A program made the translations under genes and the position numbers. This document shows, piece by piece, positions 32,875 through 61,870 of a DNA stretch of 64,000 nucleotides. The notes below the pieces were generated by a model that was given only the letters and a program-made list of their open reading frames with translations, was not told where the DNA came from and did no database searches. Positions within the stretch are counted from its first letter, which is position 1. Each line of letters starts with the position of its first letter. The DNA comes from a bacterium (lineage in GTDB: Bacteria; Vulcanimicrobiota; Vulcanimicrobiia; Vulcanimicrobiales; Vulcanimicrobiaceae), in assembly GCA_021832345.1 (NCBI GenBank), contig JAKBKY010000007.1, positions 1 through 64,000 of the forward strand. The letters run 5' to 3'.

Positions 32875-33960
32875 GTGGGTAGAGACCCCCTTAGAGTTGT
32901 ATTCCAACTGGTTACGCCTGTGTACTGCGGTGGCGCCGATCCTAGCGTTTCGTCGTTCAGGATCCCGAGCCTTAAAGGGGTCCTTCGATGGTATTGGAGG
33001 GCCCTTGCTTGGCGCGATGTGCGCACGAATGCTGATAGCTCACTTGCGCCTCTGGAACAGCTACGCCGTGACGAGCAAGTGCTTTTTGGTAGCGCCGAAA
33101 CAGGCAGTGGGCTATTTTCAATGCGGCTCGCCGATGAAAAGCTTGCAAGTGGTCAGGACAGCATCAATAAAAACCAATTTAAGTACCTCGCGTATGGGCT
33201 CGATGGGCGCTCACACGCGCTGTACGAGGACTCAACGTTCGAGGTTGAGTTCATTTTCTTGCACCGTAAGGCCGGGCGCACTGGAAGCGATCTGGATGTT
33301 CTTGAGCAGTCGCTCTTTAGGGCCATCTCGGTATTCGGTGTCCTAGGGGGGATCGGCGCCCGGACCAGGCGGGGCTTCGGCTCGGTTAGGATCGTCGGCG
33401 GAACGGTCGGGGTCGACAAACGCTTGGAAGCACCGTCCACCATCGAGGAACTGGAAGACTTTCTCGACGAGCTCATGCCACAAGCGCAGGAACGGAGGAT
33501 CGCGGGCGAGCTACCGCCATACACCGCGTTTTCGCAATCATCGTCATTCCGCCTTGTGCCTCACCAAAGTCTTGACGACGCGCTTCGCAAGGTTGAACAT
33601 CGGTTAAAGACGTTTCGCGGAGAGATACGAAAGCGCGAGAAAGACCAACTAATGGGCGACGGAACCCTTACCGCGCGTGCCGCTTTTGGGCTTCCGATGG
33701 TCTTTCGCGAAGAACGTCAGTCGATCAAGGTCCTTAAAGGCGATAAGCTAGCGCGGCGCGCAAGCCCCGTGTTTATTCATATCGCCTGGCTCGACGGGGA
33801 GGCGAAACCGTTCGTGGAGATCGATAGCTACCTTCCATCAACTTACATCCTCCAAGGCTATCGGATCGAGGCGAACAAAGAGACTCTAGACGTGGATGAG
33901 GACATGATCCACAAAGCAGCATATGATTTCCTTACATACAACGCCCCTGAGAGTCGTTGA
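32875..33960 (+). CDS. cmr1: Type III-B RAMP protein Cmr1
   Basis: The 361-residue Cas7-group RAMP protein starts with FQLVTPVYCGGADP and has IPSLKGVLRWYWRAL, the Cmr1 signature (PVF.GGA...SIKG.LR.WWRA). The glycine-rich GARTRRGFGSV loop appears near residue 165. Cmr1 sits at the end of the Cmr complex near the target 3' region. GTG at 32875 is the first gene of a run in which almost every start overlaps or lies within 45 nt of the previous stop. Confidence 0.88.
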   Translation: MGRDPLRVVFQLVTPVYCGGADPSVSSFRIPSLKGVLRWYWRALAWRDVRTNADSSLAPLEQLRRDEQVLFGSAETGSGLFSMRLADEKLASGQDSINKNQFKYLAYGLDGRSHALYEDSTFEVEFIFLHRKAGRTGSDLDVLEQSLFRAISVFGVLGGIGARTRRGFGSVRIVGGTVGVDKRLEAPSTIEELEDFLDELMPQAQERRIAGELPPYTAFSQSSSFRLVPHQSLDDALRKVEHRLKTFRGEIRKREKDQLMGDGTLTARAAFGLPMVFREERQSIKVLKGDKLARRASPVFIHIAWLDGEAKPFVEIDSYLPSTYILQGYRIEANKETLDVDEDMIHKAAYDFLTYNAPESR

Positions 33961-33962
33961 TA

Positions 33963-35822
33963 ATGCCTTGCTATCTGGATGTCTCCATCGGCCCGGTTCA
34001 GCCGTTTATCGCGAGCGCGCGAAAAACGCGTGATCTGTGGGCAGGGTCCTTTCTGCTGTCGTATCTCTGTGCGCGAGCGATTCTTGGAGGCCAGGCTGTA
34101 TGCAGTAATCTCCGTCGCCCAGCCGCGAAGGACGACCCACTTCTGCAGTACCTCGGCGCAGGCAGCTCGAACCAGGCCCCGAAATTTGGAACGGTCCCGA
34201 ATAGCTTCTCGTTCGAGTGTGCAGATGAAGAACGAGCCCAGGCAACAGCTACGGCGCTTCACGCCGCGTTCGATGATGCTTGGAAATATGTCTGCGATCG
34301 AGTATGGGATCGATACATACCCGCCCTCGGCGCGCCAGGCTACGCGACCCGTGAGGTATGGAAGCGACAGACCGAGAACTTTTGGCGTGTCTATTGGGCC
34401 GTTGACGCAGAGCCGCATGGGTATGCATTGGCCGCGCGCAAGATGTGGCGCTCCTCAACGTGCCCGGAAGAAGGCGGCGATAAATGCACGGTCATGCCGA
34501 GCCATCAGGAGCTTTCGGGTTGCGTACGCGCGCATGGAGCGTCGGACCGCAAGCACCAGGATGACTTTTGGAAAGGCGTTGCGCGCGCTACCTCGCCTTC
34601 TGATCTTCGTGATGGCGAACGCCTCTGCGCGATATCGCTCGTAAAGCGCTTGTTTACCTACGTCGCAGATGATCCGGAGATACTCGGCAAGCCGATCGAT
34701 ATGCAGTCATGGAACTCGACAGTAGACGTTGCTGCGACATCCTGGTGCGATGCAGCACGTGAGAAGCATGGTCGCGATGTACTTGATGCATATAAGGCCA
34801 ACGTAGAGAAACATCTCAAACGATTCGATGCAAACTTTTTGCATCGTTCGTACCTATCGCGTAGCCCAAAAAACGACGGCCCGGAAATCCTGGATGAAAC
34901 GGCACGGAAGGAGTTATGCGATGAACTCAAGCGGCTTATAAAAAAAATAGGCTCGGCCTCACCATCGTATTACGCGATGCTGCTCGTTGATGGCGATAAG
35001 ATGGGCGATGCAGTCGGGCGGCTCGGTGTTCAGAAGATTTCGACCTCCCTTGGTGCGTTCATGCAGAAGGTTCCGGGTATCGTTAGCAACCACAAGGGCC
35101 AACTGGTCTACGCGGGTGGCGATGACGTTTTGGCGCTGCTCCCAATGGACACTGCGTTAGCTTGTGCGGCTGAGCTTTCGAAAATCCTCGGCAATGCCTT
35201 TAAGCAGAGTGATGCAGCGCCAGTGACGCTCTCGGCAGGAATTGTTTTCGCGCACATTCGGGCTCCGCTTATGGGTACTCTTACTGAGGCTCATCGCTTG
35301 CTCGCCGACGTGGCAAAGAAACGAAATGGTAGAGCATCGATGGCATGTTCCGTTTTTCGCAACAGCGGAATAGGGCTCGAATGGTCCTCAACATGGATTA
35401 GGCCATATGCACAGCCTGACCAAAGCGGCGAGCATCGTGAACCTGTCGATGAGCTGGTCTCGAGAGTCGTTCAATATACGAGCGGACCGGATGCGCGATT
35501 GTCGCGTTCATTCCTGCACCGGTTGTATGAAAATACCGTGGCGCTGTCGGGCCTCGGTATCCCGGTTGTCGGAGCGTATTACAAGCTTCCGGCTTGGATG
35601 GACCTCGATGCGCTCGTGCGCGCGTCGTTCCAGCATAGCCAGGCTCGGTCTGGCAAGCAAATGCCAACCGATGACGTGAAGCGTTTGGTTGGCGATGTGG
35701 TCGAGTTGCTACGGCCCGCTCGCGGAGACCGGAGCCCCGATGCGCATGAAGTTGGGCTTGACGGGTTGCTCTTTGCCAAATTTCTCGCGGACGGCGGGGA
35801 CGAAGAAGGCCACGTGGCATGA
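33963..35822 (+). CDS. cmr2: Cas10/Cmr2, HD-less, with active-type GGDD cyclase motif
   Basis: The 619-residue Cas10 begins at once with the palm-associated DVSIGPVQPFIASARKTRDLWAGS. There is no N-terminal HD nuclease domain and no room for one. A cysteine-rich patch (CPEEGGDKC...C) lies near residue 165. The second palm domain has LLVDGDKMGDAVG near 340 and YAGGDD near 384-388, the signature of cyclic-oligoadenylate synthesis. Target RNA binding would switch on signalling rather than DNA cutting. It follows cmr1 by 2 nt and overlaps cmr3 by 4 nt. Confidence 0.92.
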   Translation: MPCYLDVSIGPVQPFIASARKTRDLWAGSFLLSYLCARAILGGQAVCSNLRRPAAKDDPLLQYLGAGSSNQAPKFGTVPNSFSFECADEERAQATATALHAAFDDAWKYVCDRVWDRYIPALGAPGYATREVWKRQTENFWRVYWAVDAEPHGYALAARKMWRSSTCPEEGGDKCTVMPSHQELSGCVRAHGASDRKHQDDFWKGVARATSPSDLRDGERLCAISLVKRLFTYVADDPEILGKPIDMQSWNSTVDVAATSWCDAAREKHGRDVLDAYKANVEKHLKRFDANFLHRSYLSRSPKNDGPEILDETARKELCDELKRLIKKIGSASPSYYAMLLVDGDKMGDAVGRLGVQKISTSLGAFMQKVPGIVSNHKGQLVYAGGDDVLALLPMDTALACAAELSKILGNAFKQSDAAPVTLSAGIVFAHIRAPLMGTLTEAHRLLADVAKKRNGRASMACSVFRNSGIGLEWSSTWIRPYAQPDQSGEHREPVDELVSRVVQYTSGPDARLSRSFLHRLYENTVALSGLGIPVVGAYYKLPAWMDLDALVRASFQHSQARSGKQMPTDDVKRLVGDVVELLRPARGDRSPDAHEVGLDGLLFAKFLADGGDEEGHVA

Positions 35823-36883
35823 AAGTTGCATTGTCTCCACTCGATACGCTTTTCTTTCGTGACTCTGCGCCGTTCTCGCAGGGAGACGATTCCCAAAGCG
35901 GCATTATCGGCTTGTTCCCACCGAATCCGGAGACAATAGCCGGGGCCCTTCGCGCCGCGCTCGCCCGTGAAATGGGCTGGGACGGGAAATCTCGGTGGGG
36001 CGAGGATATCGTTCGAGTCCTCGGGTCCGGCTCGGGAAACCTCGGGTTATTCGATCTAGAGTCATACTGCCTACTCCAAGGGAATCATGTGCTATTGCCC
36101 TGCCCCGCTCACGTGGTTCGGGGGCTGAATGACGAGAAAATTAGTCTCACGCGGCTCACGGAGAAGCCCATTCAAACGGATATGGGCCTGAAGCACTTTC
36201 CGCAGCCCGGGAAACCGCCGGGTGATTGGGTGACCGAGGCTGCGTTCTGCGAGATATTGGCGGGACGAGTACCCGAGGACAGCGGAGTCCTGCAGAGTGA
36301 TGCCTTATGGTCTAAAGAGTATCGCGTGGGCATCCAGCGCGACACGAAATTACGAACGGCCCAGGAAGGTGCGCTTTACAGCACAGTTCACGCTCGTTTA
36401 CATGATGCGCCGTCCAACAAGCAAATACGAATCGCTGTAACTGTGGGAGGGCTGAGTGATACGTTGGGGCTGCAGGCTGGCAGCATCATACCTCTCGGCG
36501 GCGAGAGCCGTGCAGTCATCGTCGAGCCATGGGCAGGGGATCTTTCGTTTCCGCGCGTCAAGCTGTCGGGCGGAGCGGCGTTCGTCCTTATCGCCATCAC
36601 GCCGGCCCTATTAGGAACCGGAATCCTTGCTGGGACAGATGATGTACTGATAGTAAACGGTATTGCCGTGCAAATACAGAGCATCGCATCCAATCGAGAG
36701 CTTCGTATCGGCGGCTGGGACTCTACCGCAAAACAACCGCGGCCGCTCCGCAACGCCCTCGTTCCCGGCAGTGTGCTCTTCTGTAAGGCAACCTCGGACT
36801 TCGAGGTTCCGACGGGGCTCGTTCGCCTTGGATCGGACTGCAACGCCGGCTATGGGCTCTTCGTAATTGGCCACACTCCATGA
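35819..36883 (+). CDS. cmr3: Type III-B RAMP protein Cmr3
   Basis: The 354-residue Cas5-group protein has the Cmr3 opening LSPLDTLFFRDSAPF and PPNPETIAGALRAALA. The glycine-rich GSDCNAGYGLFVIG ending is typical of a RAMP loop. Cmr3 binds the 5' handle of the crRNA next to Cmr2. ATGA overlap with cmr2; cmr4 follows after 19 nt. Confidence 0.9.
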   Translation: MKVALSPLDTLFFRDSAPFSQGDDSQSGIIGLFPPNPETIAGALRAALAREMGWDGKSRWGEDIVRVLGSGSGNLGLFDLESYCLLQGNHVLLPCPAHVVRGLNDEKISLTRLTEKPIQTDMGLKHFPQPGKPPGDWVTEAAFCEILAGRVPEDSGVLQSDALWSKEYRVGIQRDTKLRTAQEGALYSTVHARLHDAPSNKQIRIAVTVGGLSDTLGLQAGSIIPLGGESRAVIVEPWAGDLSFPRVKLSGGAAFVLIAITPALLGTGILAGTDDVLIVNGIAVQIQSIASNRELRIGGWDSTAKQPRPLRNALVPGSVLFCKATSDFEVPTGLVRLGSDCNAGYGLFVIGHTP

Positions 36884-36902
36884 TAGAAGGAAGCGATCGA
36901 TT

Positions 36903-37736
36903 TTGATAAACACAATAATGCTCGGATTGCTTGCCGAGACCCACGTACATGTGGGAGCCGGAAGAAGCGCAGGCGTTGTCGATCTGCCGGTTGCGCGAGA
37001 GAGCGCGACAGGCTATCCTTACATTCCCGCATCGGGACTAAAAGGCGCCTTTTGCGATGCATTTGCCGATGCGGACAGCTCCCCAGATACCCGATATGAG
37101 GTATTCGGCACACAAGACCAAGCAGGAGCGGTGTTATTCTCCGATGCGCGCATCGCTCTTCTTCCGATTCGATCTCTGAGCGGGGCATATCGATGGGTCA
37201 CAAGCCCGCTGGTACTTGAGCGATTGCTGCGAGATATGGACCGTGGCCCTCGGGCCTTCGCATTCCAGATTCCGACGCTCCAAGAACAAAATACAGGGCT
37301 CTTTTCAGCCATCGCCATGCTGGCCGACGGCGAGAACTCGCTTGCCCTTGAGGAACGAGTCTTTCGCGTCCAGGGTGTGCCGGATGCTGCAATCGTCACG
37401 GCCCTTACGCGTTTGATCGCGCACCAAAAAACACGTGAGCGTGTGGAAAAACAGCTCGCGATTGTGAGCGATGATGATTTCGCTTGGTTCTGCCGTAATG
37501 CGCTGCCCGTGAGTGCCCGCAACAAATTAGACGATAATAAGCAAAGCAACAATCTTTGGTATGAAGAGGCCCTCCCACCAGATACGCTTCTCTACACGCT
37601 AGTAGCCGAGCGTTCCACGGACGCAATGCAAAAGTTTATGCGCGTTTTAACACGCGGTGATCGCAAGTATGTGCAGCTCGGGGGCAACGAAACTCTCGGG
37701 CAAGGGTGGTTCGCGTTCTCGGTTATTGAGGAGTAA
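36903..37736 (+). CDS. cmr4: Type III-B backbone nuclease Cmr4
   Basis: The 277-residue Cas7-group subunit forms the backbone that cuts target RNA every six bases. HVHVGAGRSAGVVDLPVARE carries the catalytic aspartate (Asp27 by this start), equivalent to Asp26 in known Cmr4. PYIPASGLKGAFCDAF is the RAMP signature. The start is probably TTG at 36903, with AGAAGGAAG 7-8 nt upstream; an in-frame ATG at 36918 is an alternative. Confidence 0.9.
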   Translation: MINTIMLGLLAETHVHVGAGRSAGVVDLPVARESATGYPYIPASGLKGAFCDAFADADSSPDTRYEVFGTQDQAGAVLFSDARIALLPIRSLSGAYRWVTSPLVLERLLRDMDRGPRAFAFQIPTLQEQNTGLFSAIAMLADGENSLALEERVFRVQGVPDAAIVTALTRLIAHQKTRERVEKQLAIVSDDDFAWFCRNALPVSARNKLDDNKQSNNLWYEEALPPDTLLYTLVAERSTDAMQKFMRVLTRGDRKYVQLGGNETLGQGWFAFSVIEE

Positions 37737-37744
37737 GAGCACCC

Positions 37745-38167
37745 ATGCAACAGAGCGACAAGAGTCAAGATGTCGGTCAAGCGCGCATCCGCAACGCGTA
37801 TGACCAGGCTGTCCAAGCGGCCAAGGGCCTTCCTGAGGACGATAAAAAGAAGAAGTACAGGTCCTACGTTGAGCGCCTGGGCCCATCCATCCTGCGCATG
37901 GGTTTAGGGCAGGCACTCGCCGTGGAGATGGGCGCTGCCTCGAAGTCGCCGGAACACAAGCAGCTGTTTGAAAATGTGGAGGCTTGGCTCGTGGCGAGCA
38001 GCACTGCATATGAGGCGACCGCACCGAATCAGAGCATTATTGAGAAAATCGTGAACGGAACGCAGAGGCAGTACCTCTGCCTCCAAGAAGAAGCACTGCT
38101 GTGGTTGCGCTGGCATAAGGAGTTTGTGCGAGCGCTTCTCCCGAAACCGACAGGTGACGAAGAATGA
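37745..38167 (+). CDS. cmr5: Type III-B small subunit Cmr5
   Basis: The 140-residue all-helical protein has the Cmr5 pattern: an N-terminal helix with RIRNAYDQ, a KKYRSYVERLGPSILRMGLGQALA segment and a late RQYLCLQEEALLWLRWHKEF. It forms the inner filament along the target RNA. The size is usual. It overlaps cmr6 by 4 nt. Confidence 0.9.
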   Translation: MQQSDKSQDVGQARIRNAYDQAVQAAKGLPEDDKKKKYRSYVERLGPSILRMGLGQALAVEMGAASKSPEHKQLFENVEAWLVASSTAYEATAPNQSIIEKIVNGTQRQYLCLQEEALLWLRWHKEFVRALLPKPTGDEE

Positions 38168-39282
38168 CGTGTGTTTTGTACAAAGATGCGCCGTCCGCAG
38201 ACTTTGCAACAAATGACGCCAACGCAGGCCTGGTATTTGAAAAGTTCGTTGAAATGAGGCTCAGCGGGCGGATCGATACGGGCGATGTAGCATTGAAGAT
38301 TAACCTTGATGATGACTGGTACAAGCGCGTCTGTGCATCGGTCAAGCATAGCCCGATCGTCACGGAATATGTCGCTAGGCTCTTGACGCTCATGCACCAT
38401 CTGGGCGGATACTGGGGTGCCTTTAAGGCGACCAGTTCGTTCGTCAGTGGCCTCGGCAACAGCCACCCGACGGAAAATGGCATGGTGTGGCACCCGACGT
38501 TGGGATTGCCGTATCTTCCGGCGAGTTCTCTCAAGGGCTTTATGCGAGCGGCTGCCGCTGCGCAAGGTTGCGACCAAGGTTGGGACAAGGAAGAGATCAA
38601 GCGTATTTTCGGTGCCCAACCCTCTGACGTCGCTTGCCAAGCACACGTTCAATTCTTTGATGCCATCCCCATTCAAGCGCCTTCGCTCCAGTGGGATGTT
38701 CTGACACCGCATTACGCTAATTGGACTCCCGAGGACCCTCCGGGCGACTGGCGGTCGCCGATCCCGATAAAATTCCTCGTTGTTAATGAAGCAGTGCTTC
38801 TCATAAGCTTCGTCGTCGATGCCAATTATCCGGAAAGAACAAGAGTTCAGGAAAAACTGATGCACTTGTTAACGGAGGGTCTCTGCTCGTATGGCATCGG
38901 AGCGAAAGTCAACGTTGGTTATGGTCGCTTCGAGCCGGAGTTGAAAGAGCAAAAGCGCCTTGAGCACGAGCTTGCAGATTTGATTCCCAGAGATCCGATC
39001 GAGCAACTCTATGAAGACCTGAAGGGAAAAACCGAACAGGAAATGTTCGCGGAGGTGTTCTGCAAGCTCAGTAGTACGCACCACGATTTCCTGCAAGAGC
39101 CAGAAGAGCGGCGCATATATGCGCGAGCGGTTTTGAAGCTAGGTTATCCGGAGTCTCATTGGCGACACGGCAAGGCAAAGGGACCTGTCAGCGGCGGCAG
39201 CGATAAAATAAAACAGCGGTATGACCTTCTCGTCGCGGCGACAGAGGAACGGGTAGACGGCGCACACGGCACGCCGCCATGA
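38164..39282 (+). CDS. cmr6: Type III-B RAMP protein Cmr6
   Basis: The 372-residue Cas7-group protein has PTENGMVWHPTLGLPYLPASSLKGFMRAAA, the Cmr6 signature, and GIGAKVNVGYGRF as the glycine-rich loop near residue 250. It caps the filament at the 3' end of the crRNA. The C-terminal 100 residues are charged and less conserved. ATGA-type overlaps on both sides. Confidence 0.9.
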   Translation: MTCVLYKDAPSADFATNDANAGLVFEKFVEMRLSGRIDTGDVALKINLDDDWYKRVCASVKHSPIVTEYVARLLTLMHHLGGYWGAFKATSSFVSGLGNSHPTENGMVWHPTLGLPYLPASSLKGFMRAAAAAQGCDQGWDKEEIKRIFGAQPSDVACQAHVQFFDAIPIQAPSLQWDVLTPHYANWTPEDPPGDWRSPIPIKFLVVNEAVLLISFVVDANYPERTRVQEKLMHLLTEGLCSYGIGAKVNVGYGRFEPELKEQKRLEHELADLIPRDPIEQLYEDLKGKTEQEMFAEVFCKLSSTHHDFLQEPEERRIYARAVLKLGYPESHWRHGKAKGPVSGGSDKIKQRYDLLVAATEERVDGAHGTPP

Positions 39283-40397: not shown

Positions 40398-40442
40398 ATG
40401 CGATCATAGCGTGCTTCAAGGAGCGTTGCGCGGGCTATTGTC

Positions 40443-41390
40443 GTGCAGCAGCTAGGTGTAATCGCCCTTGGTGCGCTCGTGGCGTGCGTCGCCGTGCTTT
40501 CTTTAGCTGCTTGGCCGACCCGGTCGTTGGGTGAGACCGTTTTAGATAAAGCACTGCGCGGCGTCTGGCTGAAAGTTCCGGTCGCAGCGCGACGTACATT
40601 CGAAACGCTTTCGGTAACGATGGGGCTGTTGATAATCGGAGCGTCAGGTAATTTTGTCTGGTCTCTTGCTAGCGGGCCGAAGCGCACATTCGTAGCGGCT
40701 CTGGGCTTTACGACCCTTCTGGCGCTCGATGTCTGCGTGTGCTACGGCGTTGTGGTTTTTATCCGTAGTCGGCTCCCTGCTCCCGACGTGCGACGGGTCC
40801 CCGATGCACATGTGCCCGGCATTAGAAAGGCTGTCGAGGCAATCGTCATCATGGTGTCCGACGCTGGCCGGGTCGGACTCGAGAAGCTGGCACAGAAGAC
40901 TACGACAAAAATCGATAGAGACAATTGCGGCGAAATTGTCGATGCCCTCTGTGAAGACGTGGAGTGCCGGGAAACGAAATGGATTACCTCATTTGCAAGC
41001 ATAAAGGGCTGCAAACCGCTGAAGTACATTGGCCTTCTCTGTACCAATGAGTCAAAAGCCAGTGCTGAGGCCATAAAGAAGGTGTTTACAAGCGATGCTG
41101 TGCAGAATAACGCGATTACGGTCAATATTAGTCAGCCGGTCGATTTTAATGATCTTGATACGACGGCTAAGGAAGTACGCAATCTCGTTCGCCACTGCAA
41201 CGAAGAGATGCAAATCGCTAGCGAGCATATCCTCGTTGACTTTACTGGTGGCACGAAGGTTGTATCGCTTGCCGCTCTGCTGGCGACCGTCGATGATGGG
41301 GACCTGCGTCTACAATACACGAATATGAATTGGTCTAACCGACTGAATTATTTTCTTTATGAAGTGGATTACAGACGTCACAAGATATAG
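40443..41390 (+). CDS. Membrane-anchored CARF-domain protein
   Basis: The 315-residue product has three hydrophobic stretches: about 5-24 (LGVIALGALVACVAVLSL), 59-79 (VTMGLLIIGASGNFVW) and 84-108 (LGFTTLLALDVCVCYGVV). A C-terminal CARF-like domain follows from about 175: LKYIGLLCTNES, a long helix, ILVDFTGGTKVVSLAALLAT and LRLQYTN. The D-F-T-G-G-T-K loop is the usual ligand-contact site. No nuclease motif is seen. By analogy with membrane CARF proteins such as Cam1 it may depolarise or disturb the membrane when cyclic oligoadenylate binds. GTG start, 45 nt after the Cami1-like gene. Confidence 0.78.
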   Translation: MQQLGVIALGALVACVAVLSLAAWPTRSLGETVLDKALRGVWLKVPVAARRTFETLSVTMGLLIIGASGNFVWSLASGPKRTFVAALGFTTLLALDVCVCYGVVVFIRSRLPAPDVRRVPDAHVPGIRKAVEAIVIMVSDAGRVGLEKLAQKTTTKIDRDNCGEIVDALCEDVECRETKWITSFASIKGCKPLKYIGLLCTNESKASAEAIKKVFTSDAVQNNAITVNISQPVDFNDLDTTAKEVRNLVRHCNEEMQIASEHILVDFTGGTKVVSLAALLATVDDGDLRLQYTNMNWSNRLNYFLYEVDYRRHKI

Positions 41391-46036: not shown

Positions 46037-47020
46037 ATGTCTGATTCCCTTGCGTCGGCAATGGTCGGCGCCCGTGTCCTCATCGAGGCCGACTTGCAGC
46101 CGGTGCAAGGCAGTCGCTTCCAGCCAACCGGCTTCCCCAGTCTCGGTGCGGCCGAGTTTAGCCGTCCTGACGGCACCCCCATGTTGCTCGTGGAGTCCGC
46201 ACAATCGATGGCCAATCGCTTAGAGGCTACGGCTTGGGATGACGTGCGAGACGATCTCGTCGTTGCTCTCGATGGGCTGCCGTACGTTTCGACGAGCATT
46301 GACGGTCGATCTACGGACAGCATCCGCGAAGCGCATCGCTTGAACTCACCGTACCTCATAGAGGGTATCAAGGCCGGCCTCCAGGAACGCGCAGGCATCG
46401 CCGGGAAAAAAACCAAAGGGAAAAGCGCGGAAGATGGCGAGGCGGACGAAAGCTCCGGCGTTGACCTGCGGCGTTTGGCTCAAGCTGTATTTCACTATGA
46501 TCCAAACGCGCTTATGCATGGCATATTCCTAGAAAAAATCGTTGGGACCGCGCGGCTTACACGCATCCTCTCGGCGTTCATTGAAGCTGTAGACGTACGA
46601 CCGGTCGAGAGCGGCGGCGTGAAGAACGATCGGATCGACCCGAAAGGCAAGGGCCGAGGCGGAGCAGCGAAGGGATTCGGGAACGTTCCTTTTGCACGTA
46701 CCGAATACACCGCTGGGAAGATTATCGCGTACTTCTCCATAGACGTTGCCTTGCTAAAATCCTATGGGTTGGGGTCAGAAGGGGAGCGCCTGATCGTTAG
46801 TCTTGCGCTGTGGAAGATCCGTCGTTTCCTTGAAACTGGCGGTCGCTTACGTACAGCGTGTGACTTTGAGGTTCATTCCGTTCGTGTAACGCGCCCGGAA
46901 GGATGGGAACTACCGTCGGCCGCCGATCTTGAACGTACCATCAAGGAGTGTATCGTGAGCTGCCGCGCGGCCGGTCTCTTCGCCGATCCTCCCAAAACGG
47001 TCGTTCAGCTCGCAAAATGA
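46037..47020 (+). CDS. csb1: Type I-G backbone protein Cas7 (Csb1 family)
   Basis: The 327-residue protein has the Csb1 pattern: LIEADLQPVQGSRFQPTGFP, PMLLVESAQSMANRLE, SIREAHRLNSPYL, and HGIFLEKIVGTARLTRILSAFIEA. Csb1 coats the crRNA spacer as backbone. A Lys-rich loop (KKTKGK) lies near residue 120. It starts 6 nt after csx17 and overlaps csb2 by 4 nt. Confidence 0.92.
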   Translation: MSDSLASAMVGARVLIEADLQPVQGSRFQPTGFPSLGAAEFSRPDGTPMLLVESAQSMANRLEATAWDDVRDDLVVALDGLPYVSTSIDGRSTDSIREAHRLNSPYLIEGIKAGLQERAGIAGKKTKGKSAEDGEADESSGVDLRRLAQAVFHYDPNALMHGIFLEKIVGTARLTRILSAFIEAVDVRPVESGGVKNDRIDPKGKGRGGAAKGFGNVPFARTEYTAGKIIAYFSIDVALLKSYGLGSEGERLIVSLALWKIRRFLETGGRLRTACDFEVHSVRVTRPEGWELPSAADLERTIKECIVSCRAAGLFADPPKTVVQLAK

Positions 47021-48480
47021 TCGCGCTTCGCATCGAGTTCCTTGCGGGGCAGTTCCACGCGAATCCGTGGGATCGTGGGACGAATGAAGGCGAGGTGGAA
47101 TGGCCGCCGTCGCCGTGGCGCATGTTGCGTGCCGTTACCGCGGGCTGGCATCGCAACGGTTCAGCGGATCGCGATGCGCTCCTGAGCGTCCTCGACGCCT
47201 TAGCGGAGTCACCCTCGTACTACCTTCCGCGCGCCACCGCCGGCCATTCGCGGCACTATGTTCCGCTCGGTGGCCTGAAGGGCGGCAAGCCGGAGAAGAC
47301 GCTTATGCTTGACTCCTTCCTGGCACTGGAGCACGGGAGAGAACCGCATGCGCGCGCGTATGCGGTGTGGCCGCATGTGACGCTCTCCTCAGATGAACGT
47401 GCGCTCCTGGAGCGAGTGTGCGCCGCGATCGGCTACCTCGGCCGCGCTGAATCCTGGTGCAGCATGACGGTCGTCGATGCGCCCGAGCAGCGAGAAGGCC
47501 TTACCCTCGTCGATCTAGCCTCGCGCAACGCGGGCACCGGCCCTCTAGTGCGCAGGCTGGCCGCTGGTCCCGATCTACGTGGCGCCGGACTCCTTCGCTC
47601 CCTCTCCGAAACGACGGGTGAGATGCGGCGCGCTCGGCGCCTTATTCCTCGCGGTACAGCATGGGTGGAGTACCGTCTGCCCGACGATTACCTTATGGTC
47701 CGCGAGCAGTATGAAGCGCGCGAGCGCGAGCAGCCGGCATTCGGCCCCGTGATCCTGCGCTTCACCGTCGAGGGCACCGTATCCAGCGTTTTGCCGCCGG
47801 TGACGCAAGCGGTGAGTATCGCCGAGGTGATGCGCCGCGCGGCGATGTCGCGCTACAGCGATAAGAATGGAGGCACAGTGTCGACGCGGCTGGCCGGCAA
47901 GAGCAGCGAAGGCAGCGCGAAGCGCGAAGGGCACGACCATCCATTCTATCTACCGGCGGACTCGCATGGAAGCGGACGAGTCGACCGCATCGATGTTTGG
48001 CTTCCGGAAGGTTGCACGTACGACGAATATCGCGCCCTCACGTCGATCCCTAAACTCTACGATCGCTTTTCTTTCGATGGCGAGTTGGCCCTGACGTTTC
48101 TCGGCAGCGTGGAGCCGCCGCGTGCGCGTGTGTGGACGACCGCGACGCCGGTAGTGCTGGATCGCTTCCCAAAAGTGCGCGGCTCGAACGGAAGTCGACG
48201 CGTGGTCGACGCGCCGGACGAGCAGCTTCGTGCGATGGTGGCGCGCCGCCTCGATGAACCGTGCGAAGTCGAACTGTGGGCGCAGGGCGAAACCGTGCCG
48301 CACCGTGGCGGGCACGGCATGCGGCTCGACGCGTTTCGCCGAGCGCGCCGAGGCGAGTTGCCGACCCATCCGGTCGTCGGTGCAACCCTGCGCTTTGAGC
48401 GCGAGGTGCAAGGCCCGATCGTCCTCGGCAGTCTCGCGCACTTTGGGTTAGGTCGGTTCGATCCGAGTGAACCGTGCTGA
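47017..48480 (+). CDS. csb2: Type I-G Cas5-Cas6 fusion (Csb2)
   Basis: The 487-residue protein starts LRIEFLAGQFHANPWDRGTNEGEVEWPPSPWRMLRA in short overlapping motifs, the Csb2/GSU0054 signature. An N-terminal Cas5-like part (about 1-230) is joined to a Cas6-like part that ends with a glycine-rich GSLAHFGLGRF. It should process the pre-crRNA and hold the 5' handle. It is the only Cas6-like activity in the locus, so the III-B complex must rely on it or on a trans factor. ATG 47017 overlaps csb1 by 4 nt; the open frame upstream to 46948 is not the start. Confidence 0.9.
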   Translation: MIALRIEFLAGQFHANPWDRGTNEGEVEWPPSPWRMLRAVTAGWHRNGSADRDALLSVLDALAESPSYYLPRATAGHSRHYVPLGGLKGGKPEKTLMLDSFLALEHGREPHARAYAVWPHVTLSSDERALLERVCAAIGYLGRAESWCSMTVVDAPEQREGLTLVDLASRNAGTGPLVRRLAAGPDLRGAGLLRSLSETTGEMRRARRLIPRGTAWVEYRLPDDYLMVREQYEAREREQPAFGPVILRFTVEGTVSSVLPPVTQAVSIAEVMRRAAMSRYSDKNGGTVSTRLAGKSSEGSAKREGHDHPFYLPADSHGSGRVDRIDVWLPEGCTYDEYRALTSIPKLYDRFSFDGELALTFLGSVEPPRARVWTTATPVVLDRFPKVRGSNGSRRVVDAPDEQLRAMVARRLDEPCEVELWAQGETVPHRGGHGMRLDAFRRARRGELPTHPVVGATLRFEREVQGPIVLGSLAHFGLGRFDPSEPC

Positions 48481-48510
48481 GGCGTTCGCTTGGCGCAATC
48501 ACCCGTACAC

Positions 48511-48712
48511 AACGCGATTTGGAGATTTCATTTATGTCCTGCACGTCTTCCAAAAAAAGCCAAGACCGGCACCGAAACGCCGAAGCGCGAGCTCGACCTC
48601 GTCCGGCAGCGCCTCAAGGCAATCAAGCTCGGCTCGCAAGCGGGCGAGGAGCGATGACGAAGGCTTTGTGTTTGGCAGCGACAACTCTACGGTTAAGCAG
48701 CTAAGAATGTGA
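48511..48712 (+). pseudogene. Decayed RelE/Gp49-like toxin and antitoxin 5' end
   Basis: This stretch is a degraded copy of 50014-50200. It keeps the toxin core TRFGDFIYVLHVFQKK, then loses frame: a run of seven A after CTTCC replaces AGAAAAAA in the intact copy, one base shorter. The first two thirds of the toxin are missing. The start of the antitoxin (FVFGSDN) is recognisable before the sequence diverges. It follows the csb2 stop in the same way as the intact toxin follows the csb2 remnant. Confidence 0.8.
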
Positions 48713-48827
48713 CGCGCACGCAGCGCCGGTTGCTGCCGATGGATGCGACGGCACACGATCGGGCAGCCGGCTACGGCGGCTGTGCCGAATCAATTACTGT
48801 TACCTATACACATGGAGAATATATGAA

Positions 48828-49142
48828 ATGCCGCACACTCCAAATCGTGTGAACATTGAAATTCCTAAGGATCGGATCGCCATGTTCTGTCGGCGGCATC
48901 ACGTGCGCAAACTCGCATTGTTTGGGTCAGTTCTGCGTGAGGATTTCGGGCCCGACAGCGATATTGATGTTCTCGTGGAGTTTGAGTCCGGATTCTCCCC
49001 CGGCTTGGAGTTCTTCGAGATGGAGATCGAGCTTTCAGAGGTACTGGGCCGAAAGGTAGACTTGAATACGCCGGCGTTCCTAAGCAAGTATTTCCGCGGC
49101 AGAGTGCTTGCGGAGGCGGAGGTCGCGTATGTCTCGTCATGA
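48828..49142 (+). CDS. mntA: MNT-type nucleotidyltransferase antitoxin
   Basis: The 104-residue minimal nucleotidyltransferase has GSVLREDFGPDSDIDVLVEF near residues 33-52, matching the GSx10DxD active site of MntA. MntA inactivates its HEPN partner by transferring AMP units to a tyrosine. It overlaps the HEPN gene by 14 nt. An ATG at 48823 is out of frame; the 48828 start has GGAG about 11 nt upstream. Confidence 0.9.
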   Translation: MPHTPNRVNIEIPKDRIAMFCRRHHVRKLALFGSVLREDFGPDSDIDVLVEFESGFSPGLEFFEMEIELSEVLGRKVDLNTPAFLSKYFRGRVLAEAEVAYVSS

Positions 49143-49470
49143 GAGTCTGGTAAGGCTCCGGCACATGCTCGATCACGCTCGCGAGGCGGTCGCGATCCTT
49201 GATGGTAAGAGCCGCGAGGATCTCGACCGCGACCGTCAGCTAAATCTTGCTCTTGTCCGTCTGCTCGAGATCGTGGGTGAAGCCGCAAACAAAATGCCGG
49301 CAGAGGAACGCCTTCGATATGCCGACGTTCCATGGAGCGCGATCGTTGGTCTGCGAAACAGGCTGATACACGGGTACGATTCGGTCGACTTCGACATCCT
49401 GTGGGAAGTTGCACGCCACGACTTGCCGCCGCTAATCGAAACACTCGCGAAGATTCTTCCTGGAACGTGA
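49129..49470 (+). CDS. hepT: HEPN-domain toxin (HepT, DUF86 family)
   Basis: The 113-residue helical protein has RNRLIHGY near residues 78-85. This is the Rx4HxY motif of HepT: Arg and His form the RNase site and Tyr is the residue modified by MntA. RLLEIVGEAANKMP and WSAIVGLRNRLIHGYD are typical. ATG 49129 overlaps the mntA stop. Upstream in-frame codons to 49108 are unlikely to be used. The pair sits between the two csb2-like segments. Confidence 0.9.
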   Translation: MSRHESLVRLRHMLDHAREAVAILDGKSREDLDRDRQLNLALVRLLEIVGEAANKMPAEERLRYADVPWSAIVGLRNRLIHGYDSVDFDILWEVARHDLPPLIETLAKILPGT

Positions 49471-49476
49471 CAACAT

Positions 49477-49767
49477 ATGATCCCCCTTCGTCTCGAGTTC
49501 CTTGCGGGGCAGTTCCACGCGAATCCGTGGGACCGTGGAACGAATGAAGGCGAGATGGAGTGGCCCCCGTCACCGGGCGCATGCTGCGCGCCGTTACCGC
49601 CGGCTGGCACAGAGCCGGTGGAACCGCCGAGCGCGCCGAGGCGAGTTGCCGACCCATCCGGTCGTCGGCGCGACCCTGCGCTTCGAGCGCGAAGTTCAAG
49701 GCCCGATCGTCCTCGGCAGTCTCGCGCATTTCGGCCTCGGTCGGTTCGATCCGAGTGAACCGTGCTG
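49477..49767 (+). pseudogene. csb2 remnant with internal deletion and frameshift
   Basis: The first ~130 bases match csb2 codons 1-45 (LEFLAGQFHANPWDRGTNEGE) and the last ~140 bases match the csb2 3' end (positions 48345-48480), up to and including TGCTGAGGCGTTCGCTTG. About 1.2 kb between them is missing. A further one-base loss (CCGGGCGC instead of CCGTGGCGC) breaks the frame. Many silent differences show the duplication is not recent. Confidence 0.9.
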
Positions 49768-49777
49768 AGGCGTTCGC

Positions 49778-49805
49778 TTGACGATATCCCCAATATGGGT
49801 ATACT
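49778..49805 (+). promoter_or_regulatory. Promoter-like element before the RelE-like toxin
   Basis: TTGACG (49778-49783) and TATACT (49800-49805) are 16 nt apart. The -10 touches the GTG at 49806, so the true start codon may lie slightly further downstream or the transcript may be leaderless. Confidence 0.5.
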
Positions 49806-50237
49806 GTGAACCTGCGGCGGATCGCGTGGGTGAGCGGCGCAGCGAAGGCGTTCAGCAAGCTTCCTGCAACGGTTCAGGGGGATATGCTCGACGCGCTCGC
49901 CCTGGCGCAACGCGGCGGCATGAGCGATTCGGCACGGCCGATGCAAGGCGATCTCCGAGAAGTCGTGGAGATTCGCATCAACCACAGGAGCGGAACGTAT
50001 CGCTCTATGTACACCACTCGATTTGGAGATTTCGTTTATGTCCTCCACGTCTTCCAGAAAAAAGCCAAGACCGGCACCGAAACGCCGAAACGTGAGCTCG
50101 ACCTCGTCAGACAGCGCCTCAAGGCAATCAAGTCCGGCTCGCAAGCGGGTGCGGAGCGACGACGAAGAGCTCGTGTTTGGCAGCGACAACGCATGGGCCG
50201 ATCTTGGCTATCCCGATGCGCAGGAACGCAAGGTTAA
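49806..50237 (+). CDS. RelE/HigB-superfamily toxin (Gp49-like)
   Basis: The 143-residue product resembles phage-derived Gp49-like RelE toxins. Motifs: RRIAWVSGAAKAFSKLPATV, LREVVEIRINHRSGTYRSMYTTRFGDF in pieces, YVLHVFQKKAKTGTETPKREL and LVRQRLKAI. Such toxins cut mRNA at the ribosome. The last ~30 residues extend past the usual end and overlap the antitoxin by 89 nt. The exact start is uncertain (see the promoter-like element). Confidence 0.82.
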   Translation: MNLRRIAWVSGAAKAFSKLPATVQGDMLDALALAQRGGMSDSARPMQGDLREVVEIRINHRSGTYRSMYTTRFGDFVYVLHVFQKKAKTGTETPKRELDLVRQRLKAIKSGSQAGAERRRRARVWQRQRMGRSWLSRCAGTQG

Positions 50238-52475: not shown

Positions 52476-52650
52476 GAGCTCTTCGAGCACCCCGACGACC
52501 GCATCGTCACGCAGGGGCGCTCGAACGTCGATTTGCCGGGCGATTTTCGCAATTCCCGGGGGACTTCTGCTTCGCCACCACCCTCGAAAGGTGACCCGCT
52601 CGAAAGGTGTCGAAAAGGCGCTCGAGAACACTAGATTATTCAGTCATGCC
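52476..52650 (+). promoter_or_regulatory. CRISPR leader
   Basis: This region between cas2 and the first repeat contains two perfect 11-base direct repeats CTCGAAAGGTG (52583-52593 and 52599-52609) and a third partial copy TCGAAAAGG. A -10-like TAGATT lies about 20 nt before the first repeat. Location next to cas2 and the ATTGAAGC 3' end of the repeat both put the leader here. Confidence 0.7.
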
Positions 52651-55600
52651 ACTTCCGCGACGGAAACGTCGCGGCCCCATTGAAGCGTGCGAATACGAGT
52701 ACATCTCGCATCCGAATAATCTGACTTCCGCGACGGAAACGTCGCGGCCCCATTGAAGCGTTGTAACGTACGGCGCAAGGGCAATAGTGCTGGGAACTTC
52801 CGCGACGGAAACGTCGCGGCCCCATTGAAGCCAAGAGGCCGAGCTTCGCGGCGAAGCTCATGCCGGAACTTCCGCGACGGAAACGTCGCGGCCCCATTGA
52901 AGCATTTTCCACAGGTGCATTGGGGCACTCCCTCTCTCCACTTCCGCGACGGAAACGTCGCGGCCCCATTGAAGCGGTACAATAGGGACGCTAGGTTACA
53001 TTGGGATGGCGCGACTTCCGCGACGGAAACGTCGCGGCCCCATTGAAGCAACTCTCATCGCAAACGATACCGACAAAGTCTTGCCAAACTTCCGCGACGG
53101 AAACGTCGCGGCCCCATTGAAGCCGGGCATCGTGGTGCCGCTTGCCGGCATCTAGCAACACTTCCGCGACGGAAACGTCGCGGCCCCATTGAAGCTATCT
53201 TCGCAAGAGCGAGTTTTACAAATCCCCCGTGACTTCCGCGACGGAAACGTCGCGGCCCCATTGAAGCGTCATGGGCCCTCTTCCCTCTTCTCGGCACTCG
53301 TCGACTTCCGCGACGGAAACGTCGCGGCCCCATTGAAGCCGCTTGTGGCGCACGCCGAGGCGCACGAGAACGCAGAACTTCCGCGACGGAAACGTCGCGG
53401 CCCCATTGAAGCTATGAATAGGCACGACGGATCGCACGACGGATCGCACGACTTCCGCGACGGAAACGTCGCGGCCCCATTGAAGCTTTCTACTCGTCGT
53501 CGTCACTCCGGCTAACGGAGGTACTTCCGCGACGGAAACGTCGCGGCCCCATTGAAGCTTTTTTTCTGGCACGGCCGCAGAAGAAAGTCTAAAGACTTCC
53601 GCGACGGAAACGTCGCGGCCCCATTGAAGCGTGGTTTGCTCTTGCGGCGAAGAGTCCGTACGCGATACTTCCGCGACGGAAACGTCGCGGCCCCATTGAA
53701 GCGCGATGAGGTCGATACGCTTCAGCGTGACAGGGACCACTTCCGCGACGGAAACGTCGCGGCCCCATTGAAGCGAGATGTCGATCAGCCGAATGAGTTC
53801 CGGGTCGATAACTTCCGCGACGGAAACGTCGCGGCCCCATTGAAGCTTCATTCGGCGCTGCTGCTCACGGTGTTGGGCGCGGCACTTCCGCGACGGAAAC
53901 GTCGCGGCCCCATTGAAGCACTTCCATTCTGCGGCAAGAGGACGGCGCATCGCCCGACTTCCGCGACGGAAACGTCGCGGCCCCATTGAAGCCAATCTGC
54001 ACTTATAGCTGGGTACGCGAATGCGGCAGACTTCCGCGACGGAAACGTCGCGGCCCCATTGAAGCTTGAACACTCCGGCGACGTATCTGAGCTCGGCAGA
54101 GACTTCCGCGACGGAAACGTCGCGGCCCCATTGAAGCAGCGTAACGGGGACCCGGGCGTTTGCCAGGCGCACGACTTCCGCGACGGAAACGTCGCGGCCC
54201 CATTGAAGCACAATCTTTTCAAGTTCATCGCCCTTTCCCATTGCGGACTTCCGCGACGGAAACGTCGCGGCCCCATTGAAGCTGTATTTTGTTGTTTGCT
54301 TGGCTTGTTTGTTTTTGACTTCCGCGACGGAAACGTCGCGGCCCCATTGAAGCGCTTGGGCTGGATACATCACCGCATATACACGCGCTAACTTCCGCGA
54401 CGGAAACGTCGCGGCCCCATTGAAGCCCGCGCTATTATGCAATGGGTTACCCGTAACTTCGTGACTTCCGCGACGGAAACGTCGCGGCCCCATTGAAGCA
54501 AATGTCTGCCGGTTGGCGCTTCGTCGCCGCCGCGCAGCAGCGCAACTTCCGCGACGGAAACGTCGCGGCCCCATTGAAGCTGTACCACCGCTGAGGAGAT
54601 TGTGATGGCCGGGCGTAACTTCCGCGACGGAAACGTCGCGGCCCCATTGAAGCTTGCATTAGTTACTCGCGCAGACGGTGTGCACTAAACTTCCGCGACG
54701 GAAACGTCGCGGCCCCATTGAAGCCTATGGCAAGTTTGCCCAGCGGAAAGGTTTTCGTGGACTTCCGCGACGGAAACGTCGCGGCCCCATTGAAGCAAAG
54801 TTGCCGGAATCGGCCCAGGGTGGATTTTACCCAAACTTCCGCGACGGAAACGTCGCGGCCCCATTGAAGCATCTCCCTCGCACCGTCTCGCGATCCCATT
54901 CGCCGCACTTCCGCGACGGAAACGTCGCGGCCCCATTGAAGCCTATTGTCTCCTTAAGAGTTCCCGTAGTGCCCTGTGGACTTCCGCGACGGAAACGTCG
55001 CGGCCCCATTGAAGCCGTCGATTTAGTGAAGCGTGGGGGCGCGAGCGGATCGACTTCCGCGACGGAAACGTCGCGGCCCCATTGAAGCGGGGTACTCGGA
55101 ATGAGGGGCGTATTCTTCACCCCGGACTTCCGCGACGGAAACGTCGCGGCCCCATTGAAGCGAACGATGCCGCTTGCGCCGGGTGCAACGGACAGGAACT
55201 TCCGCGACGGAAACGTCGCGGCCCCATTGAAGCCGGGACTTTCGCCGCTCGTCATGAGCGCATAGAGGAGGACTTCCGCGACGGAAACGTCGCGGCCCCA
55301 TTGAAGCTGCTGTAGGACTAAGTACTACACAAGAAGTACAGGACTTCCGCGACGGAAACGTCGCGGCCCCATTGAAGCCTTGCTGATTTGTTCCAAACCA
55401 CGCGCGCCGAATTACTTCCGCGACGGAAACGTCGCGGCCCCATTGAAGCTGCGTTACTGCGTAAATAAGTGATACAAGCCACGTAACTTCCGCGACGGAA
55501 ACGTCGCGGCCCCATTGAAGCCGGAATCCCCGCGCAGCATTGCGTATCCATCCGACTACTTCCGCGACGGAAACGTCGCGGCCCCATTGAAGCGAGATGA

Positions 55601-58600
55601 CTGGCCTGAGCACGCTTAGGTTGCAGGTGAAACTTCCGCGACGGAAACGTCGCGGCCCCATTGAAGCGAAGCTACCACCGGAATCCCGAGTTCGTAAATC
55701 CATCACTTCCGCGACGGAAACGTCGCGGCCCCATTGAAGCCTTTCTCGGCGTGGCAGTGAATCACGCCTGAGCAGCACTTCCGCGACGGAAACGTCGCGG
55801 CCCCATTGAAGCGCCAAGCAAATATCGCGCGCGCGCGCGATTGGAGCAAAACTTCCGCGACGGAAACGTCGCGGCCCCATTGAAGCCGGGAGCCTCATTT
55901 ACGATTGAGGTCTACGGCGGCCACTTCCGCGACGGAAACGTCGCGGCCCCATTGAAGCGCGGTCAGGTCGAGCCCGTCGTGCGCGTAGAGCACCTCACTT
56001 CCGCGACGGAAACGTCGCGGCCCCATTGAAGCGGATCGGCCCTGCAGCGTCGAAAATCATAGGTAAGTACTTCCGCGACGGAAACGTCGCGGCCCCATTG
56101 AAGCTGTGGTGATGAAGTGATTGTGTGGGCATCCGATCCAGACTTCCGCGACGGAAACGTCGCGGCCCCATTGAAGCTCGCGTGTCCCGGAGGCATACAT
56201 ACGAGCAGCCGGTCACTTCCGCGACGGAAACGTCGCGGCCCCATTGAAGCGCCGATGATCCGAGCTTGATCCCAGAATGTCGACTCACTTCCGCGACGGA
56301 AACGTCGCGGCCCCATTGAAGCAGACCGGCGACGACGTTGGTATATGTCGGGTCCGAGACTTCCGCGACGGAAACGTCGCGGCCCCATTGAAGCCCGGAA
56401 GCCGAGAAGCTATTGGCAACCGGCGCGTTGACTTCCGCGACGGAAACGTCGCGGCCCCATTGAAGCGGCGAGAACTCGCGCAGGCTCGGCGAACGCTCGC
56501 GACTTCCGCGACGGAAACGTCGCGGCCCCATTGAAGCCATGTATCGGATGCCGAGATTCCCGATGGTCGCACCACTTCCGCGACGGAAACGTCGCGGCCC
56601 CATTGAAGCAACGTCATGTTGATCGCCATGTCCGGATAGGACGAAAACTTCCGCGACGGAAACGTCGCGGCCCCATTGAAGCGACGATACGCTCATCGGG
56701 CAGGGTGCAGCCGGAGCCGACTTCCGCGACGGAAACGTCGCGGCCCCATTGAAGCCGCTCTGCTGGCCGATCCAACGAACGAGCCGCTCGAACTTCCGCG
56801 ACGGAAACGTCGCGGCCCCATTGAAGCACACATCGCCGGCAAGTCTTTCGATCACGATTCCGGCACTTCCGCGACGGAAACGTCGCGGCCCCATTGAAGC
56901 TCGCTCGTCGGCGCTCCGGCGCAGGACCTCGCGGCTACTTCCGCGACGGAAACGTCGCGGCCCCATTGAAGCGCCCGTTGTCTCCTGGCCGTCGTGCGCG
57001 TCGTCACGACTTCCGCGACGGAAACGTCGCGGCCCCATTGAAGCTTCCGGGCGATCCAGCGTAACGCTGGGATCGTGGGGGACTTCCGCGACGGAAACGT
57101 CGCGGCCCCATTGAAGCGGCTGCATAGCTGTACCCATTCGTGCGCTGGAGCAGGACTTCCGCGACGGAAACGTCGCGGCCCCATTGAAGCATCGAAGAAA
57201 ACTGACGCGCCTGGCGCAAGTCGTCGAACTTCCGCGACGGAAACGTCGCGGCCCCATTGAAGCTATGGGCGAACCTATAGGCTCGCGGCACCAGGGCGAA
57301 CTTCCGCGACGGAAACGTCGCGGCCCCATTGAAGCTATAGTAATCGGTACAGTCGTCGAGAGCGAGATATTACTTCCGCGACGGAAACGTCGCGGCCCCA
57401 TTGAAGCTTGTAAATCCGAGTTGGCAGGGAAGCGAGAGAGCGCGACTTCCGCGACGGAAACGTCGCGGCCCCATTGAAGCTTCAAGGGCTGCGTTCCGGT
57501 TCCAGCCGTGATAAGACTTCCGCGACGGAAACGTCGCGGCCCCATTGAAGCAGGTCGAGGCCGTAGGAGAGCGCCTCTGCCACCTCACTTCCGCGACGGA
57601 AACGTCGCGGCCCCATTGAAGCCGCTGCAAGTGGTGCAGCCGAAGAGCGCATCTACCCACTTCCGCGACGGAAACGTCGCGGCCCCATTGAAGCGTAGTG
57701 CGCGAGTACCAGGAACGCGAAGATCAGCATAACTTCCGCGACGGAAACGTCGCGGCCCCATTGAAGCGCCTACACCTCCTCGTCGGCAGAGGTTACCCCG
57801 ATGACTTCCGCGACGGAAACGTCGCGGCCCCATTGAAGCTCCCTTCGCGCAGGCCCCATCTTACTCTCCTTGTAAGACTTCCGCGACGGAAACGTCGCGG
57901 CCCCATTGAAGCCCGCTGGCTTACGTCGTGCAGGCACGATTCGAGAGCACTTCCGCGACGGAAACGTCGCGGCCCCATTGAAGCTTCTTGCCCACGCGCA
58001 AGGATTGCCGAAAACCGGGAGACTTCCGCGACGGAAACGTCGCGGCCCCATTGAAGCGGACGTTGTGGGAGACTAACACGTGCCGTTGGTTAGGACTTCC
58101 GCGACGGAAACGTCGCGGCCCCATTGAAGCCTGGCACAGGTACAACGACTATACCGACGAGTACGACTTCCGCGACGGAAACGTCGCGGCCCCATTGAAG
58201 CTGATTCGCGATAGGCACGTGTACACCGTGCAAAGGAACTTCCGCGACGGAAACGTCGCGGCCCCATTGAAGCAACATGCTATTCGTGATGGTCGTTCCG
58301 CTCGCGACGGTACTTCCGCGACGGAAACGTCGCGGCCCCATTGAAGCCAGTTTGCGAAGGCACCTCCATGTCGTACCCGATAACTTCCGCGACGGAAACG
58401 TCGCGGCCCCATTGAAGCATCGCCGGGCGGAGCGCGAGAAGCGCCTCTGTGTCGACTTCCGCGACGGAAACGTCGCGGCCCCATTGAAGCGTTGTGTACC
58501 CCGATGCAAGCAAGAGCCGTCCGAGAACTTCCGCGACGGAAACGTCGCGGCCCCATTGAAGCGAGGCTCGCCGAGTCGCGATCGACCAGGGGCACAAGAC

Positions 58601-61520: not shown

Positions 61521-61800
61521 CGGCTGGCTCGGTGATAGGCTCTTCAGACTTTCGTGTGGGTAAACCGCTCGCTTGCCTTGGCATAAGGAAGCTCAAACCG
61601 GCGACGGTCGCTGGGAATCCGCCGCGAGCGGCGCTATCGTAGCGCCCCTCTGAAATGCCCGTGGTTACTAGGTTTTTCGTTGTCACAGTCGCAGCCGCAG
61701 CAGGGCGGTGGAAGGGGTGAACCAGGATGATTCAGGTCTTCCACCGCTGCCGACCGGGAGTGCCGATTCCCGTGCTCGACCCACACGAATTCCGGAAGCG
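61521..61800. other. Region after the array
   Basis: No gene is recognised. GGCGCTA (61630-61636) and TAGCGCC (61640-61646) form a 7-bp hairpin with a 3-nt loop that could end the array transcript, though no T-run follows. Confidence 0.4.
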
Positions 61801-61803
61801 CCC

Positions 61804-61870
61804 TATAATCTTGGAAATCGTGGAGCAACCGCCGGAGCTCTTACCAGCGCGCATGATCGACGAACTCTCT
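61804..61870 (+). pseudogene. Fossil of the cas4-cas1 5' end
   Basis: This stretch matches positions 50514-50575 almost base for base: TATAAT instead of TATAAC, TTG in place of the ATG, then codons for EQPPELLPARMI identical to Cas4. The similarity stops after about 55 bases. It shows that a second cas4-cas1 gene, or one end of a duplicated segment, once lay beyond the array. Confidence 0.8.

Follow-up and report, generated by a model that had tools for sequence, protein, structure and literature searches.

A divergent Cam1-related membrane CARF protein as a candidate cyclic-oligoadenylate effector of a type III-B CRISPR operon

The closest described counterpart of the protein reported here is Cam1 of Nitrosococcus halophilus (Baca et al. 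2024, PMC10808066), a protein of 206 aa in which a single N-terminal membrane helix carrying Asp17 precedes a C-terminal CARF domain, with no enzyme, and in which S75, T97 and Y180 contact cA4. Cap1 pairs two membrane helices with a cytoplasmic sensor of cA4, built as a tetrameric five-strand CARF-like domain with a C-terminal DUF4579, and it causes depolarisation (PMC12642688). In Chp, four helices link a HAD phosphatase at the N-terminus to a C-terminal CARF domain that binds cA4 (PMC12715507). Csx23, Cam2 and Cam3 are further membrane proteins of type III loci (PMC11014256, PMC11229360), of which Csx23 has a different cA4-binding fold, Cam2 a REC domain, and Cam3 six helices and no CARF domain. 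Membrane CARF proteins were discussed earlier (PMC9704534), and the architecture of two helices (TM-A and TM-B) followed by CARF is already catalogued in PADLOC under the models CARF_2M, TM+CARF and CARF8--CARF_TM, where CARF8 is used here solely as a PADLOC label. In the literature consulted we found no experiment on the two-helix branch, and within these computational families the one tested protein we found is Cam1, itself a match to CARF_2M.

Here we analyzed a 64,000-nucleotide stretch of a Vulcanimicrobiaceae contig (JAKBKY010000007.1), referred to as the window, which encodes a CARF-TM protein, P0001 (40443–41390, forward strand; recognized from its open reading frame, PADLOC and Pfam profiles and the match of its AF2 model to a PDB structure), as a candidate cyclic-oligoadenylate-activated membrane effector. 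Like Cam1, P0001 has an N-terminal membrane part, a C-terminal CARF domain and no enzyme, and it too matches CARF_2M; unlike Cam1, it is 315 aa long, with a two-helix core, an extra N-terminal hydrophobic segment and a longer region between CARF strands 1 and 2. The extra segment also sets it apart from the PADLOC families, with which it shares the order TM-A, TM-B, CARF and, in several genomes, a place after Cmr6. P0001 resembles Cap1 in its two membrane helices and a cytoplasmic sensor, for which cA4 is predicted; in contrast, its CARF domain is of the canonical Cam1-like kind and ends at aa 307 of 315, and a Pfam search for DUF4579 found none. It shares with Chp several helices followed by a C-terminal CARF domain, but Pfam gives no HAD match. 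P0001 and Cam3 follow a Cami1-like and a Cami1 gene, respectively, yet P0001 has a CARF domain and at most three helices. The first-pass annotation held that the membrane part is much longer than that of described effectors, which is true relative to Cam1 with its one helix but not as a general distinction, since Cap1 and Chp also exceed Cam1.

The Cmr operon of the window, encoding Cmr1, Cas10, Cmr3, Cmr4, Cmr5 and Cmr6 (type III-B), spans 32875–39282 on the forward strand (PADLOC, NCBIfam). Its Cas10/Cmr2 (33957–35822, forward; NCBIfam TIGR02577), a predicted cyclic-oligoadenylate synthase, has GGDD at aa 387, a palm2 profile match and neither an HD domain nor an HD dipeptide, and Pfam gives only Cmr2_N and palm domains, so that cyclic-oligoadenylate signalling is the expected output. 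Between Cmr6 and the CARF/TM gene sits a Cami1-like CARF-RelE effector, P0002 (39279–40397, forward; PADLOC CARF7--CARF_RelE, E 5.4e-89), which matches the solved Cami1 structure 8phb at E 5e-8; Cami1 itself is described as activated by cA4 (PMC11229360). Thirty bases downstream of P0001 a type I-G operon begins with Cas3g (at 41421) and continues with Csx17, Csb1, Csb2, a Cas4-Cas1 fusion and a CRISPR array. This array (∼52643–61600) adjoins the type I-G genes and holds >120 copies of a near-invariant repeat of ∼36 nt, and in the examined part of the window the III-B unit had neither an array nor adaptation genes of its own. Degenerate duplicates occur within 48337–50190 and at 61812–61863: pieces of csb2 at 49477–49791 are ∼90% identical to parts of 47017–48503, a flank is repeated at 50009–50190, and 52 bp from the start of cas4 recur on the other side of the array (61812–61863). 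Between the csb2 copies, at 48828–49470, a pair of nucleotidyltransferase/HEPN-like genes was recognized by eye.

Placed between two CRISPR operons, the P0001 gene can be assigned to the III-B unit because its relatives follow Cmr6 in other phyla: the order Cmr1-Cas10-Cmr3-Cmr4-Cmr5-Cmr6-CARF/TM recurs in three genomes, one from the Gammaproteobacteria (L144) and two from the Acidobacteriota (L165 and L167). Among the locus ORFs scanned, the CARF/TM protein is accompanied by a PD-(D/E)xK protein in L165 and by HEPN proteins in L143 and L144, while the only other recognized CARF protein in L167 belongs to the Cas_NE0113 type, which consists of CARF alone and has no effector domain. Partners that vary, or are not recognized at all, speak against the membrane protein being an accessory dedicated to RelE, and L167, with no other recognized effector, suggests that the membrane protein can itself be the effector. 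The Cas_NE0113 (CARF5) gene of that locus lies upstream of Cmr1 (L167:17501–18628), and its product may serve the membrane CARF protein as a regulator or as a ring nuclease.

Pairs of CARF-RelE and a following membrane CARF gene were also seen in Calditrichaeota (L063:653–2575) and Thiohalocapsa (L075:8973–11575) MAGs. There CARF-RelE is partnered by a CARF-TM protein from Calditrichota or of the Cam1 type, and the pairing thus recurs in three phyla with differing CARF-TM types. An Oscillochloris MAG carries a broken CARF_2M gene after CARF-RelE (L041:9823–10077), in which the two-helix part is readable and the CARF part is lost. The closest relatives of P0002 among the sequences searched, ∼44–45% identical over the best segment, come from Acidobacteriota, Myxococcales and Planctomycetota MAGs, and its relatives in its own phylum reach ∼35% identity; being closer to other phyla, P0002 raises the possibility of lateral transfer of the III-B unit. 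One contig labelled as a Klebsiella pneumoniae MAG (L035, CAMCWU010000026.1) has a CARF-RelE gene like those of environmental bacteria, and its label or binning is probably wrong.

The P0001 reading frame starts at a GTG and encodes 315 aa within a stop-to-stop frame of 326 aa. As the first-pass annotation described, three hydrophobic segments precede a CARF domain with the motif DFTGGTK. On the GES scale the 19-residue windows score −40.1 for segment 1 (aa 4–22, 40452–40508), −32.6 for TM2 (aa 58–76, 40614–40670) and −31.0 for TM3 (aa 89–107, 40707–40763), and three windows at or below −30 arise in 0.12% of shuffles of the sequence. The CARF domain follows at aa 131–307 (40833–41363; AF2 secondary structure over 133–307, Cam1 match over model residues 106–310), with DFTGGTK at aa 266–272 (41238–41258), all on the forward strand. 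No nuclease or protease family appeared among the Pfam, PADLOC and NCBIfam profile matches, in accordance with the same annotation, and Pfam and PADLOC profiles gave no DNA-binding or interaction domain. The loop between segments 1 and 2 and the stretch after segment 3 are both basic, each with 6 K/R against 3 D/E, a composition that would fit a cytoplasmic CARF domain under the positive-inside rule. A lipobox-like LVAC (aa 12–15) was considered and dismissed for two reasons: it has no positive n-region, and were the N-terminus anchored on the outside, the two helices that follow would leave the CARF domain outside the cell.

By profile and by predicted structure, the C-terminal part of P0001 is a CARF domain with a Rossmann-type fold. 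Pfam PF09651 scores 27.8 bits against a cut-off of 24.8, and the Pfam profile of the Card1 CARF domain 24.1 bits, slightly below its cut-off of 24.6. The AF2 model, for which alignment A5 restricted to rows cut after strand 1 was used because alignments A2 and A4 mispaired strand 1 with TM2, has a confident core (pLDDT 81–93 over aa 191–280, with one block near the end at 77–84). Its best solved match is Cam1, both in Foldseek (E 4.5e-8) and in VIA (Z 17.6, rmsd 2.4 over 147 residues), where Can2 (13.4), Csm6 (13.2) and Card1 (13.0) come next. Cam1 is also the top match by sequence, at E 0.033 with the single sequence and E 2e-7 with the family profile. The profile search and the model therefore bear out the proposed CARF domain, and the contrary outcome, a C-terminal part with some other fold, did not appear. 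The membrane part was modelled at low confidence (pLDDT 40–65), too low for a pore to be modelled from it.

Three cA4-contacting residues of Cam1 have aligned counterparts in P0001, S75 aligning with S139, T97 with T201 and Y180 with Y292. Across the 30 aligned sequences, column 139 holds S or G, column 201 S or T, and column 292 always Y. In the DFTGGTK motif D266 and T268 are invariant (30/30) and K272 is found in 24/30; the essential K160 of Cam1 aligns with T271, which K272 adjoins. The conserved contact positions suggest that P0001 binds a cyclic oligoadenylate, probably cA4, a preference over other cyclic oligoadenylates that is drawn by analogy with Cam1 and from the Cami1-like neighbor.

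P0001 belongs, as a divergent member, to a two-helix CARF family that is related to Cam1 and already catalogued, and it does not constitute a new kind of system. It matches the PADLOC models CARF_2M ("CARF, 2 TMs", PDLC01168) at E 3.6e-23 (profile 11–193 of 200, aa 55–303), TM+CARF (PDLC01053) at E 8e-16 and CARF8--CARF_TM (PDLC01947) at E 1.3e-10. Its CARF_2M score is 80 bits, against up to 126 for the best Chloroflexota proteins and 102–113 for the Acidobacteriota relatives; a Csx1-type CARF-HEPN protein reaches 35 bits over its CARF region only. Identity to the aligned relatives is merely ∼14–21%. Single-sequence searches found no relative in 149 genomes of its own phylum, nor in plasmids, phages, viral contigs or a first scan of genome contigs; viral contigs scanned with an alignment of five sequences likewise yielded none. 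The best other CARF_2M match in the phylum (L005) is a soluble CARF protein without helices. Searches with CARF_2M and a sister model, in contrast to those with P0001 alone, recovered membrane CARF proteins in Gammaproteobacteria, Calditrichota, Chloroflexota, Acidobacteriota and Cyanobacteriota. Three of the Acidobacteriota proteins (L155, L156 and L158) match P0001 directly at E 6e-9 to 2e-7 within a small set, and one set of gammaproteobacterial proteins (L113) is Cam1, matching 8t64 at E 4.8e-40.

In a tree of the CARF part, the sister group of P0001 consists of long proteins with two helices from L116, L118, L119 and L120 (support 86/79), the Chloroflexota two-helix group is the next outward neighbor (83/84), and the Cam1-like proteins form a separate group with one Calditrichota protein (89/85). 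The suggestion of the first-pass annotation that P0001 may represent a separate branch is thus borne out insofar as it groups with two-helix proteins outside the Cam1-like group; support is moderate, and the long branch of P0001 makes its placement unsure. The new element is a single divergent family member that may have a third helix.

The two helices of the family correspond to segments 2 and 3 of P0001, by both the PADLOC profile and the 30-sequence alignment, such that TM2 is TM-A and TM3 is TM-B. An alignment of five sequences (A3) that paired segment 1 with the first family helix was set aside, as the larger and PADLOC alignments place TM2 there. Within the later half of TM2, G69-N70 (40647–40652, forward) coincides with a family signature, G-[N/D]: column 69 is G in 22/30 sequences, and column 70 is N in 20, D in 8 and S in 1 among 29 letters. 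An N or D in 28/29 sequences fits a functional helix and not a passive anchor. N70 is at most a possible counterpart of Asp17 of Cam1; D96 in TM3, a candidate pore-lining acid like that of Cam1, was rejected as private to P0001 in the 30-sequence alignment.

Segment 1 has no counterpart in the 29 relatives, its columns being occupied in 1–5 of the 30 aligned sequences over most of their length, and the three helices of the first-pass annotation are not a family trait, every sampled relative having one or two. The third helix is the sole unusual feature of P0001 and also its weakest one. Its presence depends on the GTG start, which has no well-placed Shine-Dalgarno sequence; the sole such site nearby, AAGGAG (40418–40423, forward), lies 19 nt upstream. 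Were translation to begin instead at a TTG at 40527 (aa 29), segment 1 would fall outside the protein, and a two-helix P0001 would have ∼27 residues ahead of TM-A, like its relatives, in place of the present 57. This mis-called start is a question of anatomy that leaves the function unchanged and is compatible with any functional reading, and we regard it as a possible but distinctly less probable description of the gene. The codon statistics of aa 1–28 look coding (mean log-odds 0.078, where coding windows give 0.145 ± 0.089 and out-of-frame windows −0.200 ± 0.172), and a fully uncharged stretch of 19 residues at GES −40 is improbable in non-coding DNA. In addition, the TTG would open a gap of 129 nt, although elsewhere in the operon neighboring genes overlap or almost abut, and this tight packing favors the early GTG start. 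On balance segment 1 is probably translated.

As a membrane CARF protein that has no catalytic domain and comes from a type III-B operon whose Cas10 is cyclase-competent, P0001 is a candidate cyclic-oligoadenylate effector, as was first proposed for it. The function we favor, with moderate confidence, is that of a Cam1-like membrane effector of the adjacent Cmr system, activated by a cyclic oligoadenylate (probably cA4), that depolarizes or permeabilizes the membrane; depolarization has been reported for both Cam1 and Cap1, and a pore or channel is our best guess by analogy with Cam1. In such a mechanism, the Cmr complex would recognize a target transcript and Cas10 would make the cyclic oligoadenylate. 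This messenger, most likely cA4, would be bound in the cytoplasm by the CARF domains of P0001, presumably dimeric and perhaps tetrameric. The signal would then reach TM2 and TM3, which would assemble into a pore, open one, or disturb the membrane in some other way. The depolarized cell would stop growing and phage replication would be halted, an abortive outcome, while the neighboring CARF-RelE protein would simultaneously shut down translation. A more specific form of this proposal is tentative and, in our view, rather doubtful: a three-helix CARF channel, in which the extra N-terminal helix is translated and contributes to a cyclic-oligoadenylate-gated pore, representing an untested CARF ion-channel branch paired with a CARF-RelE toxin.

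The CARF domain could alternatively serve to remove the messenger, making P0001 a membrane-tethered ring nuclease or sink that slowly degrades or sequesters it and thereby restrains CARF-RelE. Sso2081, Sis0811 and Sis0455, all CARF ring nucleases, are among the fold matches of P0001, NCBIfam gives a weak Crn1 match (18 bits against a cut-off of 125), and CARF/TM genes often adjoin another effector. The non-enzymatic effector Cam1 is, however, clearly the better fold match, L167 offers the membrane protein no other recognized effector to restrain, and this reading gives no reason for a membrane anchor whose polar motif is conserved. The CARF ring nucleases known so far are soluble. We consider a ring nuclease or sink unlikely. 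A membrane-anchored regulator or recruiter, whose helices merely anchor a CARF domain that on binding its ligand positions CARF-RelE or another partner at the membrane, is also improbable, and slightly more so. It would account for the adjacent Cami1-like gene in the window, L063 and L075, and it has a parallel in Cam3, which is likewise directly downstream of Cami1 and was proposed to be accessory (PMC11229360); the relatives nevertheless pair with PD-(D/E)xK, HEPN or no recognized enzyme, hence have no fixed partner, and P0001 lacks a recognizable domain for such interactions in Pfam and PADLOC. Least probable is membrane disruption by clustering or helix insertion with no defined ion pore, which the small helix part and the description of CBASS membrane effectors as oligomerizing and disrupting the membrane (PMC12642688) would suit, but against which the conserved G-[N/D] of TM-A and the precedents of Cam1 (Asp17) and Cap1 favor a defined pore.

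Returning to the favored reading of P0001 as a Cam1-like membrane effector, its interest lies in the fact that membrane effectors show type III CRISPR immunity acting without the cutting of nucleic acids. The tested examples are few (Cam1, Cap1, Csx23 and Chp), whereas the two-helix CARF branch is widespread, and the conserved G-[N/D] of TM-A together with the ligand positions provides a short list of mutants with which gated pores could be probed in this branch. If the three-helix channel were true, its membrane domain would be larger than those of Cam1 and Cap1, or gated in another way. Finally, the presence in one operon of a membrane effector and a translation-stopping effector raises the question of whether both answer the same signal.
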